From NCBI GenBank assembly GCA_022448165.1, contig JAKVAS010000004.1:1-51006 (forward strand): a DNA stretch of 51,006 nucleotides. Reading direction: 5' to 3'. Of this stretch, positions 3,290 through 13,025 are shown piece after piece. Every line of letters begins with the position of its first letter. Position 1 is the stretch's first letter. The position numbers and the translations under genes were made by a program. The notes under the pieces were generated by a model. It worked only from the letters and a program-made list of their open reading frames with translations, was not told the origin of the DNA and searched no databases. The DNA is from Crocinitomicaceae bacterium. GTDB lineage: Bacteria > Bacteroidota > Bacteroidia > Flavobacteriales_D > Crocinitomicaceae.

Positions 3290-3321
3290 TTGTAAATCAT
3301 CGGGCAAAATATGTATATTTG
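3290..3321 (+). promoter_or_regulatory. Promoter of pyrH-frr
   Basis: TTG at 3290-3292 and TATATTTG at 3314-3321 are 21 bases apart, fitting the -33/-7 (TTTG / TAnnTTTG) pattern of Bacteroidota. The -7 element overlaps the in-frame ATG at 3311. The transcript should therefore begin near 3326 and the usable start is the ATG at 3344. Confidence 0.7.
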
Positions 3322-3343
3322 CTCGGTCTCAAATCAAGTGTAC

Positions 3344-4051
3344 ATGAAGTATAAGAGGATACTCCTTAAACTAAGCGGAGAGTCATTAATGGGTGATAAA
3401 GCCTTTGGCATTGACAATAACCGCCTTGCAGAATATGCAAAACAAATCAAAGAAATTTATGATTCCGGTGTTCAGGTGGCGATTGTCATTGGTGGCGGGA
3501 ATATTTTTAGAGGAGTACAAGCCGAAGAAGGTGGAATGGATAGAACACATGGTGATTACATGGGGATGTTGGCAACAATGATCAACGCTATGGCATTACA
3601 AGCAGGCTTGGAGTCTGTTGGGGTTCATTCTAGATTACAGTCGGCGATTGAAATGAAAGAAATTTCAGAACCGTTTGTCAGAAGAAAGGCTGTACGTCAT
3701 TTAGAAAAAGGACGTGTGGTAATATTTGGAGCTGGAACAGGGAATCCATATTTTACAACCGATTCTGCAGCATCTTTAAGAGCGATTGAAATTGAAGCAG
3801 AAGTTATTTTGAAGGGAACTCGAGTAGATGGAGTCTATACGAGTGATCCTGAAAAAGATCCAGCTGCGACGAAATATGACATGATTAGTTTTGATGATGT
3901 ATATGGAAAGGGATTGAAAGTAATGGATATGACAGCTTTCACGTTATGTAAAGAAAATGATTTACCGATAATTGTTTTTGATATGGATACACCAGGTAAT
4001 CTTAAAAAAGTGGTTGAAGGTGAACAGGTTGGTACAATTGTTCGGAACTAG
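3344..4051 (+). CDS. pyrH: UMP kinase
   Basis: Hexameric bacterial uridylate kinase converts UMP to UDP using ATP, in the cytosol, for pyrimidine nucleotide synthesis. The 235-residue product has the amino-acid-kinase-fold motifs KLSGESLMG near the N-terminus, [37 protein letters not shown] and the ATP-site segment [14 protein letters not shown] chose the ATG at 3344 ([14 protein letters not shown]), the usual family N-terminus. The frame also has an ATG at 3311, but that codon lies inside the -7 promoter element. frr follows 17 bases after the stop, the near-universal pyrH-frr arrangement. UMP kinases are typically activated by GTP and inhibited by UTP (family knowledge). Confidence 0.96.
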
Positions 4052-4068: not shown

Positions 4069-4632
4069 ATGACAGAAGAAATTAATATGATATACGAGGA
4101 GCTTAGAGGCTCAAATGGAAAGTCAATTAGTCACTTTGAAACTGAATTGTTAAAGATCCGTGCGGGAAAAGCGTCTCCAGCAATGCTGCAAGGAGTTATG
4201 GTTGATTATTATGGATCACCAACACCTCTTCAACAAGTTGCTAATGTAAATACAATGGATGCGCGTACAATAACGGTGCAGCCTTGGGAAAAAGCTTTGT
4301 TGGATGAAATAATGAGAGGAATCATAAATGCAAACTTAGGTTTTGCTCCTCAAAGTAATGGAGAATCATTAATTATTTCGGTTCCTCCATTAACAGAAGA
4401 AAGAAGACGTGAACTTGCGAAAAGAGCAAAATCAGAAGGAGAAAATGCTAAGGTAGCGATTAGAAATAATCGTAAGGATGCATTGGATATGGTGAAATCA
4501 CTTAAGGAGGATGGTCTTTCAGAGGATATGATGAAAGATGCGGAAGCAGAAATTCAAAACTTGACAAATAGTTCTTCAGCTAAAATCGATGCATTGATAG
4601 CTGTAAAAGAAAAAGATATAATGACGATATAA
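4069..4632 (+). CDS. frr: Ribosome recycling factor
   Basis: RRF acts with EF-G to split the post-termination ribosome. The 187-residue length is standard. Family signatures are the LLKIRAGKASPAML helix start, DYYGSPTPLQQVANV, ITVQPWEKALL, and the PPLTEERRRELAKRAK helix followed by AKVAIRNNRKDAL. The fold is a three-helix bundle plus a small beta domain resembling tRNA in shape. It lies 17 bases after pyrH and is probably co-transcribed with it; an intrinsic terminator follows at 4655-4686. The ATG at 4069 is used; MIYEEL a few codons later is less likely but cannot be excluded. Confidence 0.96.
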   Translation: MTEEINMIYEELRGSNGKSISHFETELLKIRAGKASPAMLQGVMVDYYGSPTPLQQVANVNTMDARTITVQPWEKALLDEIMRGIINANLGFAPQSNGESLIISVPPLTEERRRELAKRAKSEGENAKVAIRNNRKDALDMVKSLKEDGLSEDMMKDAEAEIQNLTNSSSAKIDALIAVKEKDIMTI

Positions 4633-4654
4633 CGGCTTTTTATAGAAAAAATAG

Positions 4655-4686
4655 AGTCATTCTGAATTTTCGGAATGACTTTTTTT
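4655..4686 (+). terminator. Intrinsic terminator after frr
   Basis: AGTCATTCTG (4655-4664) pairs with CGGAATGACT (4671-4680), with one wobble and a 6-base loop, followed by six Ts. It separates pyrH-frr from the arginine leader. Confidence 0.88.
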
Positions 4687-4799
4687 ATAATTGCAAATTG
4701 CACTTTATTTCAGAATGAATCATTGATAATAGTGCTATACCTAAATGGGGTATTTAAAGTAATTTTATTGTGTAAATGTAAAAGTCTAATTTTTATTGA

Positions 4800-4807
4800 T
4801 ACATTTG
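4800..4807 (+). promoter_or_regulatory. -7 element of the arginine operon leader
   Basis: TACATTTG matches TAnnTTTG. No convincing -33 TTG lies at the normal spacing (a TTG at 4768-4770 is 29 bases upstream). By the usual geometry transcription would start near 4812, a few bases before the leader-peptide ATG at 4819. Confidence 0.6.
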
Positions 4808-4818
4808 CACTCGTTAAA

Positions 4819-4926
4819 ATGAATACACAAAGTACATATCCATCTTATTTGAAGCAACGTCCTGTTGCTAATGGAGTTACTTTGCTTTCTTCTGTAAGGA
4901 GAAATAGAAGACCCAATAGGGTCTAA
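4819..4926 (+). CDS. Putative arginine attenuator leader peptide
   Basis: This is a 35-codon ORF beginning just downstream of the -7 element and lying directly ahead of the arginine operon. Its C-terminal end reads SSVRRNRRPNRV. Codons 27, 28, 30, 31 and 34 are all Arg (AGG, AGA, AGA, AGA, AGG), and codon 14 is also Arg (CGT). The last codons and the stop lie inside a hairpin (4909-4924) followed by six Ts. A short ORF with a run of codons for the end-product amino acid, next to a terminator-like hairpin and upstream of the cognate biosynthetic operon, is the hallmark of ribosome-mediated attenuation as in trp and his leaders. The peptide has no other recognisable feature. Translation and function are inferred and unproven. 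Confidence 0.68.
   Translation: MNTQSTYPSYLKQRPVANGVTLLSSVRRNRRPNRV
4853..4869 (+). other. Leader RNA hairpin, possible pause hairpin
   Basis: AGCAAC (4853-4858) pairs perfectly with GTTGCT (4864-4869), with the loop GTCCT. The same 5' arm (AAGCAA, 4852-4857) could instead pair with TTGCTT (4882-4887). Leader-peptide codons 12-17 could therefore sit in mutually exclusive structures, as expected of an attenuator. Confidence 0.45.
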
Positions 4927-4932
4927 TTTTTT
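4909..4932 (+). terminator. Attenuator-type terminator overlapping the leader ORF end
   Basis: AGACCC (4909-4914) pairs with GGGTCT (4919-4924) over 6 bp with an AATA loop, then AA and six Ts (4927-4932). The 5' arm covers Arg codon 31 and the 3' arm runs into the stop codon. A ribosome stalled on the Arg codons would physically block it. CTTCT (4889-4893) can pair with AGAAG (4906-4910) as a weak competing stem. Confidence 0.6.
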
Positions 4933-4934
4933 AT

Positions 4935-4953
4935 GTGGAGCTACGTGCCTCAC
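4935..4953 (+). other. Imperfect hairpin downstream of the attenuator
   Basis: GTGGAGC (4935-4941) and GCCTCAC (4947-4953) pair at six of seven positions (one G-U, one A-C mismatch) around a TACGT loop. It is GC-richer than its surroundings. Its function is unknown; it could be part of the attenuator or a 5' stabilising stem of the read-through mRNA. Confidence 0.35.
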
Positions 4954-4990
4954 CGTTTCAATAATCACATCTCGTAAGTACAATTTTTAA

Positions 4991-5008
4991 CAAAAGATAA
5001 TTCTTTTG
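4991..5008 (+). promoter_or_regulatory. Inverted repeat abutting the first arg gene start
   Basis: CAAAAGA (4991-4997) and TCTTTTG (5002-5008) form a perfect 7-bp inverted repeat with a TAAT loop, ending two bases before the ATG at 5011. In RNA it could occlude ribosome access; in DNA it could be an operator. It does not resemble the ArgR box consensus. Confidence 0.45.
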
Positions 5009-5010
5009 AC

Positions 5011-5667
5011 ATGCAATTTTTAATTTCTGTGGCTGATGAAAGTCACTTAAAGCATGCATCATTCATCTGTAATATGATGGCTGAAGCTGCGCAAATTCGC
5101 GGAACTGGTATTGCTATAAGAAAGCCGGAATATATCTGCCAAAAGATGAAAGAAGGAAGAGCGATAATCGCGCTTGATAATGATATGCCTATTGGATTCT
5201 GTTACATAGAAAGCTGGGATAATCAAAAATATGTTGCCAATTCAGGTTTAATTATTAATCCGAAATATCGAAATAAAGGATTGGCTAAGGCAATTAAAAA
5301 GGCCACGTTTGAATTATCCAAAAAACATTTTCCGAATGCTAAATTGTTTGGTATTACTACAAGTATGGCCGTAATGAAAATCAATTCAAGTTTGGGATAT
5401 CAGCCTGTTACATTCTCTGAATTGACTCAAGATGAAAAGTTTTGGAAGGGATGTAAAAGCTGTCCTAATTATGACATTCTAGAGCGTACTAAAAGAACAA
5501 TGTGCATTTGTACTGGAATGGTGTGTGATTTAAGCAAGATAAATCAGACAAATAAAAAATCAACATGGGAAGGATTCAGGAAGTTCTTGAAACAACGCAA
5601 GGTTCGAATAAAACAAAAAACAAAGCAATTTCCCAAACTCAACAAATTTATAGATCATGAAAAATAA
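5011..5667 (+). CDS. GNAT-family N-acyltransferase, probable glutamate N-acyltransferase of arginine synthesis
   Basis: A 218-residue GNAT protein. The acyl-CoA-binding motif is PKYRNKGLAKAI (residues 84-95), with a preceding GFCYIESW strand and a following SSLGYQPV. After the GNAT core comes a cysteine-rich stretch (Cys148, 151, 165, 167, 172; FWKGCKSCPNYDILERT), followed by a basic lysine-rich tail. It is the first gene of the arginine operon and overlaps argG by 11 bases. Bacteroidota lack classical ArgA/ArgJ in such clusters, and a GNAT protein in this position has been proposed as the N-acyl (succinyl or acetyl) glutamate synthase. I infer that role from operon position and from the otherwise missing first step. 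The cysteines suggest a metal site, which is unusual for GNAT enzymes. Confidence 0.8.
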   Translation: MQFLISVADESHLKHASFICNMMAEAAQIRGTGIAIRKPEYICQKMKEGRAIIALDNDMPIGFCYIESWDNQKYVANSGLIINPKYRNKGLAKAIKKATFELSKKHFPNAKLFGITTSMAVMKINSSLGYQPVTFSELTQDEKFWKGCKSCPNYDILERTKRTMCICTGMVCDLSKINQTNKKSTWEGFRKFLKQRKVRIKQKTKQFPKLNKFIDHEK

Positions 5668-6853
5668 TAAAGTAGTATTAGCATTTAGTGGCGGATTAGA
5701 CACTTCTTATTGCGTTAAATATTTAAAGCACAATAAAGGGTTAGAGGTACATTCAGCTATAGTAAATACAGGAGGATTCTTAATAGAAGAACTCTTAGAA
5801 ATAGAAGATAAAGCATATACTCTAGGAGTTAAAACACATATTGTATTGGAGGAAACACAAACGTATTACAACAAGATTGTGAAGTACTTAATTTTTGGAA
5901 ATGTATTGAAAAATAATAGTTACCCTCTGTCTGTTAGTGCTGAACGTATTCATCAAGCGATTGCGTTAGCCAATTATGCAAAGTCTATTGGTGCAGCTTC
6001 AATTGCTCACGGTAGTACAGGAGCAGGAAATGATCAGATACGTTTTGATTTGATTATTCAATTAATAGCTCCGGAATTGGAGATTATCACTCCTATCAGA
6101 GATCAGGAACTCAGTCGTAAGGATGAAATCGATTTTTTAGCGAATCATGGGGTTAAAGTTGATTGGAAGAAAGCTCAATATTCGATTAATAAAGGACTTT
6201 GGGGAACTAGTGTTGGTGGTTCTGAGACATTGACATCTGACCTTCCATTGCCTGAATCGGCATTTCCAAGTCAACTTGAAAGTACTGAGTCGAGTACTAT
6301 TTCTCTTTCATTTTGTAAAGGGGAGATATGTAAGTTAAACGGGGAGAAAATAGATCCTGTAACGGCAATTCAAAATATTGAAGAAATGGCAGGGAAATTT
6401 GCTATTGGACGAGATATTCATGTAGGTGATACCATTATTGGAATTAAAGGACGTGTGGGGTTTGAGGCTGCAGCGGCTGGTATTATCATAAAAGCACATC
6501 ATACATTGGAAAAGCATACCTTATCAAAATGGCAATTACATTGGAAAGAGCAATTAGGTACATGGTATGGTATGTTTATTCATGAATCTCAATATTTTGA
6601 ACCAGTTATGCGAAATATTGAGACTTTCCTTGAAGCTACGCAAGTCAATGTAACTGGTACTGTAACGATAGAATTACATCCATATCGTTTTGTTGTACAG
6701 GGTATCACTTCAAAGCATGATTTAATGAATTCTGATTTCGGAGAATATGGAGAAGTCAATAAAAATTGGAGTGGGAATGATGTGAAAGGGTTTACTAAAA
6801 TCATGGCAAATTCTATGCAGATATTTAATCATGTAAACAAAAATGAATTATGA
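5657..6853 (+). CDS. argG: Argininosuccinate synthase
   Basis: ArgG joins citrulline and aspartate using ATP to give argininosuccinate, the penultimate step of arginine synthesis. The 398-residue product starts MKNNKVVLAFSGGLDTSYC, containing the N-type ATP pyrophosphatase P-loop SGGLDTS at residues 11-17. Further family segments are AHGSTGAGNDQIRFD (aspartate/citrulline site), ITPIRDQELSRKDEIDF and the KGLWGTSVGGSE motif. Length is normal for the family. It overlaps the upstream GNAT gene by 11 bases and argC by 4 bases, indicating one transcript. Confidence 0.96.
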   Translation: MKNNKVVLAFSGGLDTSYCVKYLKHNKGLEVHSAIVNTGGFLIEELLEIEDKAYTLGVKTHIVLEETQTYYNKIVKYLIFGNVLKNNSYPLSVSAERIHQAIALANYAKSIGAASIAHGSTGAGNDQIRFDLIIQLIAPELEIITPIRDQELSRKDEIDFLANHGVKVDWKKAQYSINKGLWGTSVGGSETLTSDLPLPESAFPSQLESTESSTISLSFCKGEICKLNGEKIDPVTAIQNIEEMAGKFAIGRDIHVGDTIIGIKGRVGFEAAAAGIIIKAHHTLEKHTLSKWQLHWKEQLGTWYGMFIHESQYFEPVMRNIETFLEATQVNVTGTVTIELHPYRFVVQGITSKHDLMNSDFGEYGEVNKNWSGNDVKGFTKIMANSMQIFNHVNKNEL

Positions 6854-7827
6854 TAAAGGTTGGAATAATTGGAAGTGGTGGATATGTTGCAGGCGAGCTT
6901 ATTCGTTGTCTTGTTCATCATCCAAAAGCTAAGATCGATTTTTTATATAGTAACTCTCAATCAGGACGCTGGATTAAGGATGTTCATGATGATATGTATG
7001 AATTCGAAAATCTCAAATTTACGAATGAGATTAATGAGAAGGTTGACCTTGTTTTTTTGTGCTTAGGCCATGGGAATTCAACTCAGTTTTTACTTGGAAA
7101 TTCATTTTCAAGTCACACTAAAATAGTTGATCTGAGTAATGACTTTCGATTAAATAATAAGGCTAATTTTCAAAGCAAAAATTTTGTTTACGGATTAGTA
7201 GAGTTGAATAAAGAGAAGATTAAAAATGCACAACGAGTTGCAAATCCCGGTTGTTTTGCAACGGCAATTCAGTTAGGGTTATTACCCCTTGCAGCTGCCA
7301 AATTGATTGAAAATGATATTCACGTGAATGCTGTGACAGGTGCTACAGGTGCAGGTCAGTCGTTAAGTATGACATCACATTTTAGCTGGAGAAATAACAA
7401 TGTGTCAATTTATAAGGCATTTAAACACCAGCATCTAAATGAGATTATAGAGAGCATTGTTTCTTTACAAGAGGAGTTTAGTAATGATGTTAATTTTTTA
7501 CCCGTTCGGGGAGATTTTACTCGTGGAATATTTGCTTCAATTTATATGAAATGCGACCTAAATGAAGATGAATTGGTCAATTTATATAAGACGTATTATA
7601 AAGATGCACGTTTTACTTTGATTAGCAGCAATACAGTTCATTTAAAACAAGTGGTCAATACTAATAACTGTTTAATACAGGTTCAGAAAATTGATGATAA
7701 AGTACTAATCACTTCTGTAATTGATAACCTCTTAAAAGGAGCTGCTGGTCAAGCTATCCAAAACATGAATCTCATGTATGGACTAGAGGAAAGTACAGGA
7801 CTGAATTTTAAAGCGAATTACTATTGA
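6850..7827 (+). CDS. argC: N-acetyl-gamma-glutamyl-phosphate reductase (N-acylglutamyl-phosphate reductase)
   Basis: ArgC uses NADPH to reduce N-acylglutamyl phosphate to the semialdehyde, the third step of arginine synthesis. The N-terminal Rossmann motif is VGIIGSGGYVAGELIRCL. The catalytic cysteine lies in VANPGCFATAIQLG near residue 130, and GATGAGQSLS follows. The 325-residue length is typical. The ATG overlaps the argG stop (ATGA). In this lineage the acyl group may be succinyl rather than acetyl; ArgC itself does not show which. Confidence 0.94.
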   Translation: MIKVGIIGSGGYVAGELIRCLVHHPKAKIDFLYSNSQSGRWIKDVHDDMYEFENLKFTNEINEKVDLVFLCLGHGNSTQFLLGNSFSSHTKIVDLSNDFRLNNKANFQSKNFVYGLVELNKEKIKNAQRVANPGCFATAIQLGLLPLAAAKLIENDIHVNAVTGATGAGQSLSMTSHFSWRNNNVSIYKAFKHQHLNEIIESIVSLQEEFSNDVNFLPVRGDFTRGIFASIYMKCDLNEDELVNLYKTYYKDARFTLISSNTVHLKQVVNTNNCLIQVQKIDDKVLITSVIDNLLKGAAGQAIQNMNLMYGLEESTGLNFKANYY

Positions 7828-7829
7828 TT

Positions 7830-8960
7830 ATGAACTTATTTAATGTTTACCCACGATTTAATATTACACTTTCTAAAGCGGAAGGTGTATATGTGTATGA
7901 CGAAAATGATGAGTCATATTTGGATTTATATGGAGGTCATGGAGTGAATTCCGTAGGACATTCCCATTCAATATATACGCAAAGATTAAAAGAACAAATT
8001 GATCGAATTGCATTCTATTCAAATTCGATTGAAATGCCCCTTCAGGAAGAATTGGCAAGGAAATTATCTTCTCAAAGTGGTTATCCAAATTACAATTTGT
8101 TTTTGTGTAATAGTGGGGCTGAAGCGAATGAAAATGCGATTAAGTTAGCTTCTTTTAGCACGGATAGAAAGAAGGTTGTAGCTTTTAAAGGAAGTTTTCA
8201 TGGACGAACGTCAGCAGCACTTAATGTTACTGATAATGTGAGCTTATCAGCTTCTGTTAATCAGAATAATTTCCCAGTTGATTTTATAGAGTTAAATAAT
8301 AAAGGACAATTAGTAGATGCATTAAAGAAAAAGGATGTTTGCGCTGTTATTGTTGAAGGTATCCAAGGCGTGGGAGGCTTAGACTCTTTATCAGAAGATT
8401 ATTTTTCCTTTTTGGAACAAAATTGTAAGGAGCATGGTGCTTTATTAATCCTTGATGAAATACAAAGTGGATTCGGTCGGTCAGGGAAGTTCTTTGCTCA
8501 TCAGTATGCTAACATTGAAGCTGACATTATTACAATGGCAAAGGGAATGGGAAATGGTTTTCCTATTGGAGGCTTATTAATTAATCCAAAAATTAAGGCT
8601 AAAAATGGAATGTTGGGAACTACGTTTGGAGGAAATCACTTAGCATGTACTGCAAGTATAGCAGTGTTAGAAATTATTCAAAAGGAGAGTTTATTGAATA
8701 ATGTTAAACAGATAAATAAGCACTTGTTAAAGGAATTAAAGCAGTTCAATGATATTAAGGAGATTAAGGGAAAGGGACTAATGTTGGGCATTGAATTCGA
8801 TTTTCCGGTGAAAGAAATGAGAATAAACTTGCTAAGTAAATATCACATTTTTACGGGAGCTTCAGCAAATCCAAACCTATTACGAATTCTTCCTCCTTTA
8901 GGAATAACAGTAAAGGAAATAGCCCCCTTTATTTCAGCATTAAAAGAAATACTATCATGA
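7830..8960 (+). CDS. argD: N-acylornithine aminotransferase (PLP-dependent class III)
   Basis: ArgD transfers an amino group from glutamate to N-acylglutamate semialdehyde, giving N-acylornithine. The 376-residue protein has class III aminotransferase features: YLDLYGGHGVNSVGHSH, FLCNSGAEANENAIKLA (phosphate site), AFKGSFHGRTSAALN, LLILDEIQSGFGRSG (Asp contacting the PLP ring) and the PLP lysine in TMAKGMGNGFPIGG. I use the ATG at 7830 (MNLFNVYPRFNITLSK), two bases after the argC stop. An in-frame TTG two codons earlier overlaps argC and is less likely. It overlaps argF' by four bases. Confidence 0.94.
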   Translation: MNLFNVYPRFNITLSKAEGVYVYDENDESYLDLYGGHGVNSVGHSHSIYTQRLKEQIDRIAFYSNSIEMPLQEELARKLSSQSGYPNYNLFLCNSGAEANENAIKLASFSTDRKKVVAFKGSFHGRTSAALNVTDNVSLSASVNQNNFPVDFIELNNKGQLVDALKKKDVCAVIVEGIQGVGGLDSLSEDYFSFLEQNCKEHGALLILDEIQSGFGRSGKFFAHQYANIEADIITMAKGMGNGFPIGGLLINPKIKAKNGMLGTTFGGNHLACTASIAVLEIIQKESLLNNVKQINKHLLKELKQFNDIKEIKGKGLMLGIEFDFPVKEMRINLLSKYHIFTGASANPNLLRILPPLGITVKEIAPFISALKEILS

Positions 8961-9907
8961 AAAAATTTACATCTATAAATGATGTTGAGAACCTGAACGA
9001 GCTAATTGCTCTTTCTGAAAAGGTCAAGCAAGCGCCTTTTGATTTTAAATCAATTGGAAGAAATAAGACAATAGGATTGCTTTTCTTCAATTCGAGCTTA
9101 AGAACACGATTGAGTACTCAAAAGGCAGCAACAAATTTAGGAATGACTGTAATGGTTATGAATATTAATAATGATGGTTGGAGTCTTGAATTAGAAGATG
9201 GAACCAGAATGAATGCCGATACACAAGAACATATTAAAGAAGCGGCAGGTGTCATTTCTCAGTATTGTGATGTTATTGGAGTTCGAAGCTTTGCTTCACT
9301 GAAGGACAGAATAGGAGATTATGAAGATGAAATAATTAACAAATTTATCAAGTATACTACAGTTCCTGTTATTTCTTTGGAAAGTGCAATTCTACACCCT
9401 TTACAGTCTTTAGCAGATGTAATCACAATAAATGAGAATAAGACAAATAATAAAACTAAGGTTGTACTGACCTGGGCTCCGCACCCTAAAGCTTTACCGC
9501 AGGCTGTTGCGAATTCATTCGTAGAATGGGTGCGTGAAACAGAAATGGAATTGATTATTACTAACCCCAAGGGATTTGATTTGGCCACTCGATTTACGGA
9601 TGGAATCAAGGTGATGCATGATCAAGATATAGCCTTAAAAGAGGCTGATTTTGTGTATGCTAAAAACTGGTCATCTTATGATGATTATGGTAGAATAGGA
9701 ATTGAGTTCGATGATTGGACGATAACTGAGGAAAAAATGAAATTAACCAACAATGGAAAGTTCATGCATTGTTTACCTGTGCGTCGAAACGTAGTAGTGA
9801 GTGATGAGGTTATAGATTCTACAAATTCTTTAGTCCTTGAACAGGCCAATAATCGAACGTATGCGGCGCAAACCGTTTTATTAAAAATGTTACAAGATGA
9901 AAAGTAA
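8957..9907 (+). CDS. argF': N-acylornithine carbamoyltransferase (N-succinyl- or N-acetylornithine type)
   Basis: A 316-residue transcarbamylase of the branch that carbamoylates N-acylornithine rather than ornithine. The carbamoyl-phosphate motif is FFNSSLRTRLST (S-x-R-T-R), followed by HPLQSLAD and, near the C-terminus, MHCLPVRRNVVVSDE. The proline-rich AOTCase/SOTCase features WAPHPKALPQAVANS and YAKNWSSYDDYG are also present. In Bacteroides fragilis the homologue uses N-succinylornithine, and residue 90 (Pro there, Glu in the Xanthomonas acetylornithine enzyme) is reported to set specificity. Here residue 90 is Gln in NADTQEHIKEA, so the preferred acyl group cannot be deduced by that rule. 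It overlaps argD by 4 bases and argB by 11. Confidence 0.92.
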   Translation: MKKFTSINDVENLNELIALSEKVKQAPFDFKSIGRNKTIGLLFFNSSLRTRLSTQKAATNLGMTVMVMNINNDGWSLELEDGTRMNADTQEHIKEAAGVISQYCDVIGVRSFASLKDRIGDYEDEIINKFIKYTTVPVISLESAILHPLQSLADVITINENKTNNKTKVVLTWAPHPKALPQAVANSFVEWVRETEMELIITNPKGFDLATRFTDGIKVMHDQDIALKEADFVYAKNWSSYDDYGRIGIEFDDWTITEEKMKLTNNGKFMHCLPVRRNVVVSDEVIDSTNSLVLEQANNRTYAAQTVLLKMLQDEK

Positions 9908-10673
9908 GATATCTATCGTAAAAATAGGAGGGAATATTATTGATGATCCATATGCACTAAAGACGTTTATTAGTGATTTCGCGAAAATAAAGCATCCGAA
10001 AATTCTAATTCATGGAGGAGGAAAAATCGCAAATCGACTTAATGAAGAGTTGGGAATTAAAACAGTTATGAATGAGGGGCGTCGAATTACATCAGCTAAG
10101 AATCTTGATACTGTAATAATGGTATATGCAGGTTTGATAAATAAGAGAATAGTAAGTGCTTTACAAGGGCAGGAATGTAATGCGATTGGATTGTCTGGAG
10201 CTGATGCGAATTGTATACAGGCTTCAAAACGATCTGTACACCCTGTAGATTTCGGATGGGTTGGAGATGTTAAGTCGATTAATCAATCAACAATCAATTT
10301 GTTTTTAAGAGAAGGTATAACACCTGTTTTTTGCGCAATTAGTCACGACGGAAATGGACAGTTACTAAATACAAATGCAGATACAATTGCTTCAGAAATT
10401 GCTATCTCAATGAGCAACGACTATGATACAGAACTGATTTATTGTTTTGAGAAAAGTGGTGTTTTACAAAATGTGAATGATGATGATTCAATCATTCAAA
10501 AGATCAATACAAAGAAGTATTTAGAATTAAAAACAAAAAGAATCATTAATAAAGGCATGTTGCCAAAAATGGAAAATTGCTTTCATGCGTTAAACAACAA
10601 TGTATCAAAAGTAATCATTGGTAACTCTTCAGTCATTAACAATGATGAAAAGTGTTCCATTTTAACCTTATAG
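9897..10673 (+). CDS. argB: N-acylglutamate kinase
   Basis: ArgB phosphorylates N-acetyl- (or N-succinyl-) glutamate with ATP, the second step of arginine synthesis. The amino-acid-kinase fold shows VKIGGNIIDD at the N-terminus (phosphate-binding Lys and Gly pair), IHGGGKIANRLNEELG, GLSGADANC and LLNTNADTIASEIA. The C-terminal segment INKGMLPKMENCFHAL matches the family's KGGMxPKxxAC pattern. At 258 residues it lacks the N-terminal helix extension of arginine-inhibited hexameric kinases. Feedback by arginine at this enzyme is therefore less likely, which would leave transcriptional control more important. It starts inside argF' (11-base overlap). Confidence 0.93.
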   Translation: MKSKISIVKIGGNIIDDPYALKTFISDFAKIKHPKILIHGGGKIANRLNEELGIKTVMNEGRRITSAKNLDTVIMVYAGLINKRIVSALQGQECNAIGLSGADANCIQASKRSVHPVDFGWVGDVKSINQSTINLFLREGITPVFCAISHDGNGQLLNTNADTIASEIAISMSNDYDTELIYCFEKSGVLQNVNDDDSIIQKINTKKYLELKTKRIINKGMLPKMENCFHALNNNVSKVIIGNSSVINNDEKCSILTL

Positions 10674-10674
10674 T

Positions 10675-11733
10675 ATGAAAGACGAAATGATGCTAAAGGC
10701 AATTGAGTTATTAACAAAGTTGATTGAGACACCCTCTTTTTCCAAGGAAGAAGAGGAAACAGCCAAAATTATTGAAGACTGGTTTTTAGAGTTTGAAATA
10801 GAATGTAAACGTAATGGAAATAATGTGTGGGTCACAAATAAATACTATGATACGAAGAAGCCAACAATATTATTGAATTCTCACCATGATACGGTAAAAC
10901 CAAATAAAGCTTACAGAAACAATCCTTTTGAGGCAAAGGTTGAAAAAGGAAAACTTTATGGTTTAGGGAGTAATGATGCGGGAGGAGCTTTGGTTGGGTT
11001 GATGAGTTTATTTGTTCATTTCTATAAACAGAAGGACCTAAAATATAATCTTTTATTTGCGGGAACTGCTGAGGAAGAAATATCTGGTATAAACGGTATT
11101 TCAAGCATCCTTAACCTAATGCCTCCAATAGATTTTGCTGTAGTTGGAGAGCCTACAGAAATGCAATTGGCGATTAGTGAAAAAGGATTATTGGTCATAG
11201 ACGCCTATGCTACAGGAGTTTCTGGACATGCTGCTCATGATAATACCGAAAACTCGATTTATAAGGCACTAAGAGATATCAGTTGGATAGAGAGTTATAG
11301 CTTTCCTAAAACTTCAAGCACTTTGGGGAAAGTAAAGATGAGCGTAACACAAATTAATGCTGGTACGCAACACAATGTCGTTCCCGCAGATTGTCATTTT
11401 GTGATTGATGTAAGGGTGAATGATGTCTATCAAAATCAAGAAATATTTGAGATTATTAAAAAGCATACGGGATGCCATATGAAGGCTCGCTCGTTTCGAT
11501 TAAATTCTTCTTGCATTGATTCAAATCATCCAATTGTAAAAGCGGGAGTAAGTTTAGGAAGAGAAACTTACGGTTCTCCAACGATTTCTGATCAAGCATT
11601 ATTGACTTGTCCTTCATTAAAGTTGGGGCCTGGAAAGTCATCTAGATCGCATAGTGCGGATGAATTCATTTTGCTTTCAGAAATCAAAGAAGGGATTAGC
11701 CTATATATTGACATATTTAATGAAATACTTTAA
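10675..11733 (+). CDS. argE: M20-family N-acylornithine/N-acylcitrulline deacylase
   Basis: The 352-residue dinuclear zinc hydrolase removes the acyl group late in the pathway. With an N-acylornithine transcarbamylase upstream, the natural substrate should be N-acylcitrulline rather than N-acylornithine (inference from pathway order). Metal and catalytic motifs are LNSHHDTVKPN (His ligand and Asp), LGSNDAGGALVGL (bridging Asp) and FAGTAEEEISG (general base Glu and ligand Glu). The dimerisation-domain histidine lies in GVSGHAAHDN, and a C-terminal metal His in SRSHSADE. It begins one base after the argB stop. DapE is the other M20 possibility, but the operon position favours ArgE. Confidence 0.9.
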   Translation: MKDEMMLKAIELLTKLIETPSFSKEEEETAKIIEDWFLEFEIECKRNGNNVWVTNKYYDTKKPTILLNSHHDTVKPNKAYRNNPFEAKVEKGKLYGLGSNDAGGALVGLMSLFVHFYKQKDLKYNLLFAGTAEEEISGINGISSILNLMPPIDFAVVGEPTEMQLAISEKGLLVIDAYATGVSGHAAHDNTENSIYKALRDISWIESYSFPKTSSTLGKVKMSVTQINAGTQHNVVPADCHFVIDVRVNDVYQNQEIFEIIKKHTGCHMKARSFRLNSSCIDSNHPIVKAGVSLGRETYGSPTISDQALLTCPSLKLGPGKSSRSHSADEFILLSEIKEGISLYIDIFNEIL

Positions 11734-11744
11734 AGAATAATACC

Positions 11745-13025
11745 ATGAAACTTTGGGATAAAGGATATACTACAGATAATTTAGTTGATCGATTTACAGT
11801 CGGAAAAGACCGTGTGTTAGATTTACAACTTGCAAAGCATGATGTTGCAGGAAATATTGCTCATGCTAAAATGTTGCATAAAATTGAAATATTGACGAAA
11901 AGTGAGCTTGATTTAATTTTAGAAGGACTAGCACAAATTCAGACTACAATTGATAATGAAACATTTACAATTGAAGAAGATTTTGAAGATGTTCATAGTA
12001 AAGTTGAATTTGAACTTGTACAACGGATTGGCGAAGCGGGTAAAAAAATACACACAGCACGTTCTCGGAATGATCAAGTTTTAGTTGATCTACATTTATA
12101 TACGAAAGAGGAGATAGATACGATAAAGGGATTAATTAAGACCTTATTTGATACTTTGATTGATTTGAGCGAACAATATAAGGAGGTGCTTATTCCTGGC
12201 TATACGCATATGCAAGTAGCAATGCCTTCTTCATTCGGATTATGGTTTTCAGCATACGCAGAGAGTTTAATTGATGATATTACTTTGTTGAATGCAGCAT
12301 ACAAAATATGTGATCAAAATCCGTTGGGATCTGCGGCGGGATATGGTTCTTCTTTTCCAATAGATCGAACAATGACAACTGAGTTATTAGGATTTGAAAG
12401 TATGAAATATAATGTGGTCGCCGCTCAAATGAGCAGAGGAAAGATAGAGAAAACGACTGCTTTTGCTATTGCTTCTGTGGCAGGAACGTTATCTAAGCTT
12501 TCTGCTGACGTATGTTTGTATATGAGTCAGAATTTTAATTTTTTAGGTTTTCCTAAGGAGCTTACTACTGGGTCAAGTATTATGCCGCACAAACAGAATC
12601 CAGATGTTTTTGAGTTGATGCGAGCGAAGTGCAACAAGCTTCAAAACATGCCCTCTGAAATTATGATGATCACGAATAATTTAACCAGTGGTTATCATAG
12701 AGACTATCAATTGCTTAAAGAGAATCTAATGGAAGGTATAAATACCCTAAAGGATAACTTAGAAGTTTGTGATTTTATGTTAAGACATGTTATTATCAAT
12801 AAAAATATTCTCAATAACGAAATCTATGATTATTTATATAGCGTAGAAGAGGTAAATAAACTTGTTCTTAAAGGTGTAAGTTTTAGAGAAGCATATCAAA
12901 AGTTAGGGAAGGAAATATTAGACGGAAATTTTACTCCAGAAAAAGTAGTGAATCATTCTCATGAAGGAAGTATTGGTAATTTATGTTTAGATAAAATTAT
13001 AGCTAAATTTAAGCTCAACTATTGA
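11745..13025 (+). CDS. argH: Argininosuccinate lyase
   Basis: ArgH splits argininosuccinate into arginine and fumarate, the last step. The 426-residue product belongs to the fumarase/aspartase superfamily. It has LWDKGYTTDNLVDRFTVG at the N-terminus, HTARSRNDQVLVDLHLY, the GYTHMQVAMPSSFGLWF region with the catalytic His, and the signature GSSIMPHKQNPDVFELMR on the flexible catalytic loop. It is slightly shorter than the usual ~460 residues. It follows argE after 11 bases and is the last gene of the operon. No strong terminator follows; the next gene starts 135 bases on. Confidence 0.95.
   Translation: MKLWDKGYTTDNLVDRFTVGKDRVLDLQLAKHDVAGNIAHAKMLHKIEILTKSELDLILEGLAQIQTTIDNETFTIEEDFEDVHSKVEFELVQRIGEAGKKIHTARSRNDQVLVDLHLYTKEEIDTIKGLIKTLFDTLIDLSEQYKEVLIPGYTHMQVAMPSSFGLWFSAYAESLIDDITLLNAAYKICDQNPLGSAAGYGSSFPIDRTMTTELLGFESMKYNVVAAQMSRGKIEKTTAFAIASVAGTLSKLSADVCLYMSQNFNFLGFPKELTTGSSIMPHKQNPDVFELMRAKCNKLQNMPSEIMMITNNLTSGYHRDYQLLKENLMEGINTLKDNLEVCDFMLRHVIINKNILNNEIYDYLYSVEEVNKLVLKGVSFREAYQKLGKEILDGNFTPEKVVNHSHEGSIGNLCLDKIIAKFKLNY

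Follow-up and report, generated by a model that had tools for sequence, protein, structure and literature searches.

Arginine pathways are the standard example of control by a repressor (ArgR), and in the classic attenuators of the trp, his and ilv operons a short open reading frame (ORF) with a run of codons for the amino acid of the pathway lies between the promoter and the biosynthetic operon. Several variants of the latter arrangement are in print. The regulatory Ile/Val/Leu codons of actinobacterial ilvB leaders overlap the candidate terminator, and the Mycobacterium cys leader peptides are found without a clear terminator (PMC1262725), whereas the uORFC-8-2 cysS motif has two stems, the first of which contains the leader codons, and always ends in a U-run (PMC8632094). 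In Salmonella orf34-speF (PMC6386406) and S. aureus rbfL (PMC13009471), Arg codons of a leader ORF serve as arginine sensors by making the ribosome pause; the targets are polyamine synthesis and a biofilm regulator, and not an arginine biosynthesis operon, and the control is exerted through Rho/RNase G and through occlusion of the RBS, respectively. Among the Bacteroidota, strong clues for leader-peptide attenuation before amino acid operons were given for Flavobacterium psychrophilum, with pheA and hisG elements named and with arginine not named in the section on this subject (PMC9723704). Our literature search, with most subscription papers outside its reach, found no arginine-biosynthesis leader peptide in Bacteroidota, in keeping with a preliminary description of the present locus, whose author knew of no arginine attenuator of such a design in this phylum.

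The stretch of DNA that we analysed (the window) comprises 51,006 nucleotides of the genome of a Crocinitomicaceae bacterium (3.39 Mb, 306 contigs, 86.5% complete) and contains a GNAT-argGCDF'BEH operon preceded by a short ORF with an Arg-rich end (Table 1). The arg leader resembles the classic attenuators in its short ORF, its codon run and its place between promoter and operon, but it uses Arg, its last regulatory codons and its stop codon lie inside a hairpin (h1), its T-tract is usually poor, no conserved antiterminator was seen and an extra hairpin (h2) is present. It shares the overlap of codons and hairpin with the actinobacterial ilvB leaders, which belong to another phylum and other amino acids and for which no h2 is described in the available text (PMC1262725). 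It has the two successive stems of uORFC-8-2, but the arg leaders mostly do not end in a U-run (PMC8632094). Taken as a whole, we read it as an attenuator by which the ribosome senses arginine and controls the operon in place of the absent ArgR repressor, and we give this reading a probability of about 0.6. That the leader senses Arg in one way or another is highly probable.

Table 1. Features of the arg leader region and of the downstream operon in the window
Feature	Position	Strand	Basis
Terminator-like site 3' of the frr-like gene	4653-4682		terminator scan
-7 promoter element TAnnTTTG (TACATTTG)	4800..4807	+	sequence; 11 nt 5' of ATG
Leader ORF, 35 codons, C-terminal Arg run	4819..4926	+	translation; relatives; Arg-only enrichment
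Hairpin TTTCTTCT/AGGAGAAA, just 5' of h1	4886..4904	+	predicted in the window; conservation not seen
h1, 6-bp hairpin AGACCC-AATA-GGGTCT over the last codons and the first stop-codon base; likely intrinsic terminator stem in the window's clade	4909..4924	+	folding, terminator scan, T-tract comparison
Six-T tract, after h1 and AA	4927..4932	+	sequence, terminator scan
h2, GTGGAGC-TACGT-GCCTCAC, 6/7 pairs, one A-C mismatch	4935..4953	+	loop type and position recur in relatives
GNAT-family gene, first of the arg operon, probable ArgA-type N-succinyl/N-acetylglutamate synthase	5011..5667	+	Pfam PF00583 over cut-off
argG	5657..6853	+	best NCBIfam matches are argininosuccinate synthase models, below their cut-offs
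argC	6850..7827	+	TIGR01850 over cut-off
argD-like class-III aminotransferase	7824..8960	+	PF00202 over cut-off
argF'-type N-acyl-ornithine carbamoyltransferase	8957..9907	+	NF003384 over cut-off
argB	9897..10673	+	TIGR00761 over cut-off
argE/dapE-type deacylase	10675..11733	+	TIGR01910, below cut-off
argH	11745..13025	+	TIGR00838 over cut-off

Upstream of the leader lie two genes that we take, from their translations, to be pyrH-like (3311-4051) and frr-like (4069-4632). The GNAT protein BT3761 of B. thetaiotaomicron is a probable N-succinylglutamate synthase (PMC7311316), and the GNAT gene of the window is probably its counterpart, judging by operon position and family and not by alignment to BT3761. 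The leader peptide (MNTQSTYPSYLKQRPVANGVTLLSSVRRNRRPNRV) has Arg at codons 14 (CGT), 27 (AGG), 28 (AGA), 30 (AGA), 31 (AGA) and 34 (AGG), that is, at five of its final nine codons, and the translation agreed with the preliminary description both in the 35 codons of the ORF and in the five Arg residues of its tail. Among the ORFs of the 260 nt examined upstream, the highest Arg count over the final 12 codons was five, a value reached by none of 60 dinucleotide shuffles. The TAnnTTTG element, which had been placed about 11 bases before the ORF, is indeed found 11 nt before the ATG; it is the consensus named for flavobacterial sigma-A (PMC9723704), and its strict form occurred at most 45 nt before a possible ATG in 40 of 120 leaders, the start codon of which is often uncertain. 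Free-energy folding of 4812-5010, proposed earlier as a check, gave z = -3.3. The stop codon TAA (4924-4926) overlaps h1, which ends at 4924, by one base. No Rfam model, for a T-box or any other leader family, matched the window at the gathering score.

The choice of Arg codons in leader tails was biased in 33 named loci, where AGA made up 0.05 of the Arg codons versus 0.20 in the downstream genes and AGG 0.24 versus 0.11; hairpin pairing could be an alternative cause of this bias. The leader of the window itself has AGA three times, despite the rarity of this codon in leader tails.

The GNAT gene was detected, the window genome counted, in three of 60 near relatives and, at the level of the order, in 12 of 399 genomes, two of which matched weakly. 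Within the window's genus (g1) it matched in three of 34 genomes, its own included and several of them incomplete, so the arg operon seems patchy there. In a draw over the phylum, 169 of 392 genomes had GNAT at E <= 1e-30; apart from the window's own genome, the reading for Arg ORFs covered 129 of these (29 + 100 loci); the other 39 were outside it, four of them being read for the argR slot only.

In the window's family, a short ORF with an Arg-rich end, overlapping a hairpin or shortly before it, was found in L001 (the window), L002, L003, L005, L006, L007, L009 and L011; L004 and L008 had a 19-codon ORF with two Arg, and in L010 no leader was found in the region upstream of GNAT. Over the phylum, ORFs whose final 12 codons include four or more Arg were present between -300 and -40 of GNAT in 63 of the 129 loci in the forward and in six in the reverse direction, whereas every other amino acid, put to the same test, gave at most six forward and at most nine reverse. 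By family, the leader with four Arg was found in 30/31 loci of f35 (0.3 expected from shuffles), 7/9 of f14 (0.2), 6/7 of f19 (0.1), 12/30 of f17 (0.3), 4/12 of f15 (0.1), 2/3 of f18 (0.1), 1/2 of f41 (0.2) and 1/1 of f51 (0.1), and in none of the 34 loci that f16, f21, f22, f34, f36, f37, f39, f49, f53, f56, f59, f63 and f68 contribute together. The named set gave 31 of 88 loci (2.5 in shuffles), genomes with ArgR counted. When at least three Arg in a slightly wider stretch were accepted, 102 of the 129 loci were included, with chance matches in GC-rich families among them. The conservation that the preliminary description had proposed to look for was thus seen in the ORF position, the Arg run and the overlapping hairpin, which are kept in many Bacteroidota, but not in the peptide outside the Arg run, whose sequence varies freely, as expected of a leader peptide.

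This free variation would also be compatible with a short ORF that arose by chance, h1 being a mere terminator of the upstream transcript. We hold this to be very improbable, because the upstream gene already has a terminator-like site (4653-4682) and because the enrichment in the 129 loci is for Arg only and is absent from genomes with ArgR. The comparison strongly supports the role of the ORF as a putative sensor.

Eleven of the 30 f17 loci had GNAT and no leader even at three Arg, all of them from genus g75 (11 of the 11 g75 loci read). By their likeness to named loci, f17 would correspond to Flavobacteriaceae and g75 to Flavobacterium. None of the genomes of these g75 loci (e.g. L171, L174 and L178) gave an ArgR match in the phylum draw either. 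Two tandem Arg-rich ORFs, the second one near or over h1, were observed upstream of GNAT in some loci (e.g. L006, L011, L061, L087, L092, L131, L147, L159, L160, L179 and L194).

ArgR (PF02863) was detected in 15 of the 60 genomes tested; the genome of the window, at 86.5% completeness, gave no match, and neither did the nine further family members that were tested. ORFs that had three or more Arg and ended no more than 180 nt from GNAT were present in none of the 15 genomes with ArgR versus 37 of the 45 without it (Fisher p 9e-9, a value not to be taken literally, because the genomes share history and the counts are not independent trials); none of the 37 genomes with such a leader gave an ArgR match. 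The limit of four Arg gave 0/15 versus 22-23/45. With the wider -300 limit, ORFs with three Arg were found in three of the 15 ArgR genomes (L067, L078 and L080), and these ORFs appear to lie inside the upstream coding sequence. Eight genomes lacking ArgR fell below the three-Arg limit: L016, L017, L004 and L008 have two Arg in the leader tail, L033 and L070 have a hairpin of the h2 type, and in L041 and L055 neither leader nor ArgR was found in this test.

In the phylum draw, ArgR was found in 125 of the 392 genomes, with an overlap of only six with the 169 GNAT genomes. One of the six (G483) has a borderline ArgR match with an internal stop, and in G686 and L358-L361 argR ends just before GNAT, with no Arg leader between them (by eye in the case of L358-L361). 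The ArgR gene beside GNAT in such Bacteroidales-type genomes occupies the same slot before the same operon and presumably exerts arginine control as well, but through a protein repressor. A leader distribution complementary to that of ArgR is therefore supported by these counts.

A terminator scan of 4550-5100 gave three sites (h1, its reverse-strand reading and 4653-4682) versus a shuffle mean of 0.2. The 6-bp hairpin followed by six Ts had been placed correctly in the preliminary description, with the T-tract at 4927-4932. When the unchanged window RNA was folded with the ribosome footprint kept unpaired, the probability of h1, which is 0.98 in the ribosome-free RNA, was 0.83 when codon 27 occupied the A site, 0.18-0.19 with codon 28, and 0.00 with codons 30, 31 and 34. 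It was also 0.00 with the ribosome at the stop codon (codon 36), an effect missed in the preliminary description. A stall at most of the Arg codons would thus prevent the terminator from forming, but a ribosome that lingers at the stop codon would have the same effect, and termination at high arginine would need release of the ribosome or an RNA polymerase (RNAP) ahead of it.

The Ts in the eight positions after h1 numbered seven in the window, six to seven in L002, L003 and L006, five in L007, four in L009 and none in L005. Over 135 loci the mean was 3.4 of 8, with at least six T in 14 loci, although the h1 finder chose the wrong hairpin in some of them; among the 23 his loci of the same genome group with an identified stem, 12 had at least six T, a comparison that favours his, because the his stems were chosen with the T count in the score. 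A candidate intrinsic terminator between leader and first gene is present in the window and some close kin, with a weak T-tract in most relatives. We consider it slightly more probable than not that h1 is an intrinsic terminator in the window. The earlier proposal that a stalled ribosome covers the 5' arm of the terminator is plausible, according to the folding, for the window and some close kin, but it is not supported as a mechanism of general validity, the T-tract being poor in most loci and the additional stems of the preliminary description not being seen in relatives.

The hisG gene of the window's genome (L254:1188-1300) has, in contrast, a textbook leader attenuator comprising a His run (MNFNQLHHHHFHTCTQSS), the mutually complementary segments ACTCAG and CTGAGT, and CCGTCTGAGTAAATCAGACGG-T7 as a clean terminator. 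A script detected His leaders in 23 of 30 his loci (it also returned a 24th, L262, which has no His run), and inspection by eye showed classic pairs of leader and terminator in some of 27 ilvD loci (L276, L280, L286 and L292). The presence of a textbook his attenuator in the same genome indicates that the arg leader is a separate build and not just the local style.

The words AAGCAA and CTTCT/AGAAG, from which alternative stems had been proposed, are present and correctly placed in the window, but no conserved counterpart was seen by eye in relatives, nor was any other conserved antiterminator or alternative pairing. Occlusion by the ribosome could take the place of an antiterminator. An antiterminator made of the 3' arm of h1 and the 5' arm of h2 was rejected, both being G-rich in the window's kin (by eye). 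A long-range stem between the start of the leader and the sequence just before GNAT belongs to the minimum free energy structure of the window, but was discarded there (p 0.58 against shuffles); tested computationally, it stood out in family f35 alone, where 19 of 31 loci had p <= 0.05. In f35 loci (e.g. L128, L134, L149 and L120) a covarying stem joins approximately codons 7-10 of the leader to a segment about 40-70 nt before GNAT, with the arms TAGAATTGA/TCAATTCTA, ATAGTATTGA/TCAATACTGT, TAGGATC/GATCCTA and TAACATTGTT/AACAATGTTA.

In tnaC, ribosome stalling protects the transcript from Rho, and the same sensor could be read out in this way in the arg leaders, with arginine-dependent stalling shielding the transcript, h2 serving as an RNAP pause or structural element and h1 being no terminator. 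Most leaders are without a T-tract after h1, and the last 57 nt ahead of GNAT are rich in C and poor in G, with a mean C/G skew of 0.47 in f35, 0.37 in non-g75 f17 and 0.25 in the named non-ArgR set, compared with 0.09 in generic upstream regions and 0.18 in his. An Arg-codon leader that acts via Rho and RNase G has been published (PMC6386406). However, the leaderless g75 loci have a like skew (0.48) and f14 and f15 one of only 0.13, showing that the skew is no mark of the leader, and the window itself has a good T-tract. We consider a readout by Rho rather doubtful.

Hairpin h2, located between h1 and the GNAT start, was absent from the preliminary description and was found by side-by-side reading of the loci. 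In the window h2 alone is weak (-5.2 kcal/mol, z -0.77, no better than its shuffles); its probability was 0.41 in 4812-5010, where other pairings compete, and rose to 0.93 only for an RNA ending at 4960. Several families, but not all, have a hairpin at this position with this type of loop and a covarying stem. Seven stem positions paired in 25-27 of 27 rows, with several pair types, and the loops were UACGU (10 rows), UACGC, UCCGU and UAUGU (four each), UGAGU (two) and UUCGU, UGCGU and CACGU (one each); the rows were chosen by stem and loop, 22 by a pattern demanding G at loop position four and five by hand, so that the selection itself favours the model in both the pair counts and the invariant G. 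The loop list gave 20 matches in 13.65 kb versus nine in 1,736 kb, having been chosen after viewing the same loci. In the phylum set, which was not used to choose the list, the TACGT-type hairpin was found in six of the 129 loci forward (three of seven in f19, two of three in f21 and one locus of f17), and in none in reverse or in the upstream control. In f35, h2-like hairpins were seen by eye without this type of loop.

In the Flavobacteriaceae-like loci, AGGTGAGTCC or a close variant was present in 18 of the 19 non-g75 f17 loci and in none of the 11 g75 loci. Over 23 aligned sequences of this h2, 96.1% of the cells paired versus 89.3% in shuffles, and four of nine pairs had two-sided changes, a number reached by 11 of 500 shuffles; further pair types, one of five measures, were no higher than in shuffles (121 of 500 reached it). 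The 12 strong matches of a covariance model (R1) in whole genomes were all its own training loci; on 20 held-out genomes it recovered the arg locus in four (E 0.015-0.033) and not in 16, with three weak matches elsewhere than at the arg locus (E 0.065-0.087). A second model (R2) likewise had only training loci as strong matches (12/12), with weak ones (E 0.048 and above) in four of 12 g75 genomes. No second strong copy was found by either model in any genome searched, although scoring was confined to 150 candidates per genome out of the several hundred to 2,800 of the first look, so that a second copy could be passed over.

Two further roles for h2 were rejected: a kissing or pseudoknot contact of its loop with the leader, the loop complements not being conserved (by eye), and mimicry of a tRNA-Arg anticodon, which UACGU and UCCGU fit but UAUGU and UGAGU do not, the closing pair varying as a true pair. 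A possible loop-loop contact was seen (by eye) in L062, L077 and L209 only, where the h2 loop AGCUCG is the complement of CGAGCU of h1. The his leaders L266 and L268, of Sphingobacteriaceae type, carry h1 and a TACGT-loop hairpin, and hence h2 is not strictly tied to arginine.

The recurrent h2 loop (UACGU, UAUGU, UACGC and UCCGU, with UGAGU in Flavobacteriaceae-like loci), its covarying stem and a sequence conservation that exceeds the need of a plain terminator or pause would also fit a post-transcriptional control, in which the position of the ribosome sets the h1/h2 fold seen by an RNase or RNA-binding protein and the operon mRNA is stabilised at low arginine. The TACGT-type loop was present in only six of the 129 phylum-set loci, the h2-like hairpins of f35 lack it by eye, and we know of no trans factor for such a control. 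There is a precedent in speF, with RNase G (PMC6386406), but on balance this explanation is distinctly unlikely.

According to the attenuator that we favour, when Arg-tRNA is scarce the ribosome would stall on codons 28-34, h1 would be kept open and the operon transcribed; when Arg-tRNA is ample, the ribosome would finish and leave, h1 would form and, in the window's clade, transcription would stop at the T-tract. In clades without a T-tract after h1, transcription of the operon would be cut down otherwise. Hairpin h2 would be accessory, its candidate tasks being an RNAP pause, a protein site, an RNase site or a Rho-related one. More tentatively, and with the odds against it, the leaders may form a widespread class of Bacteroidota arginine attenuators that replaced ArgR and do not depend on an intrinsic terminator, the ribosome gating h1 and h2 (with a UNNGY pentaloop in several families), to be read by RNAP or an undescribed trans factor.

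The overlap of codons and terminator, leaders without a terminator and leaders that sense Arg are already in print for other genes (PMC1262725, PMC8632094, PMC6386406, PMC13009471), so that the arg leader is not a new category. Its hairpins are arranged differently from those of the textbook his attenuator in this genome and include the extra element h2, in bacteria whose transcription-translation coupling is little studied. In a good part of the phylum, a leader peptide seems to occupy the slot in which relatives have their repressor gene, which makes the exchange of repressor and attenuator directly testable.
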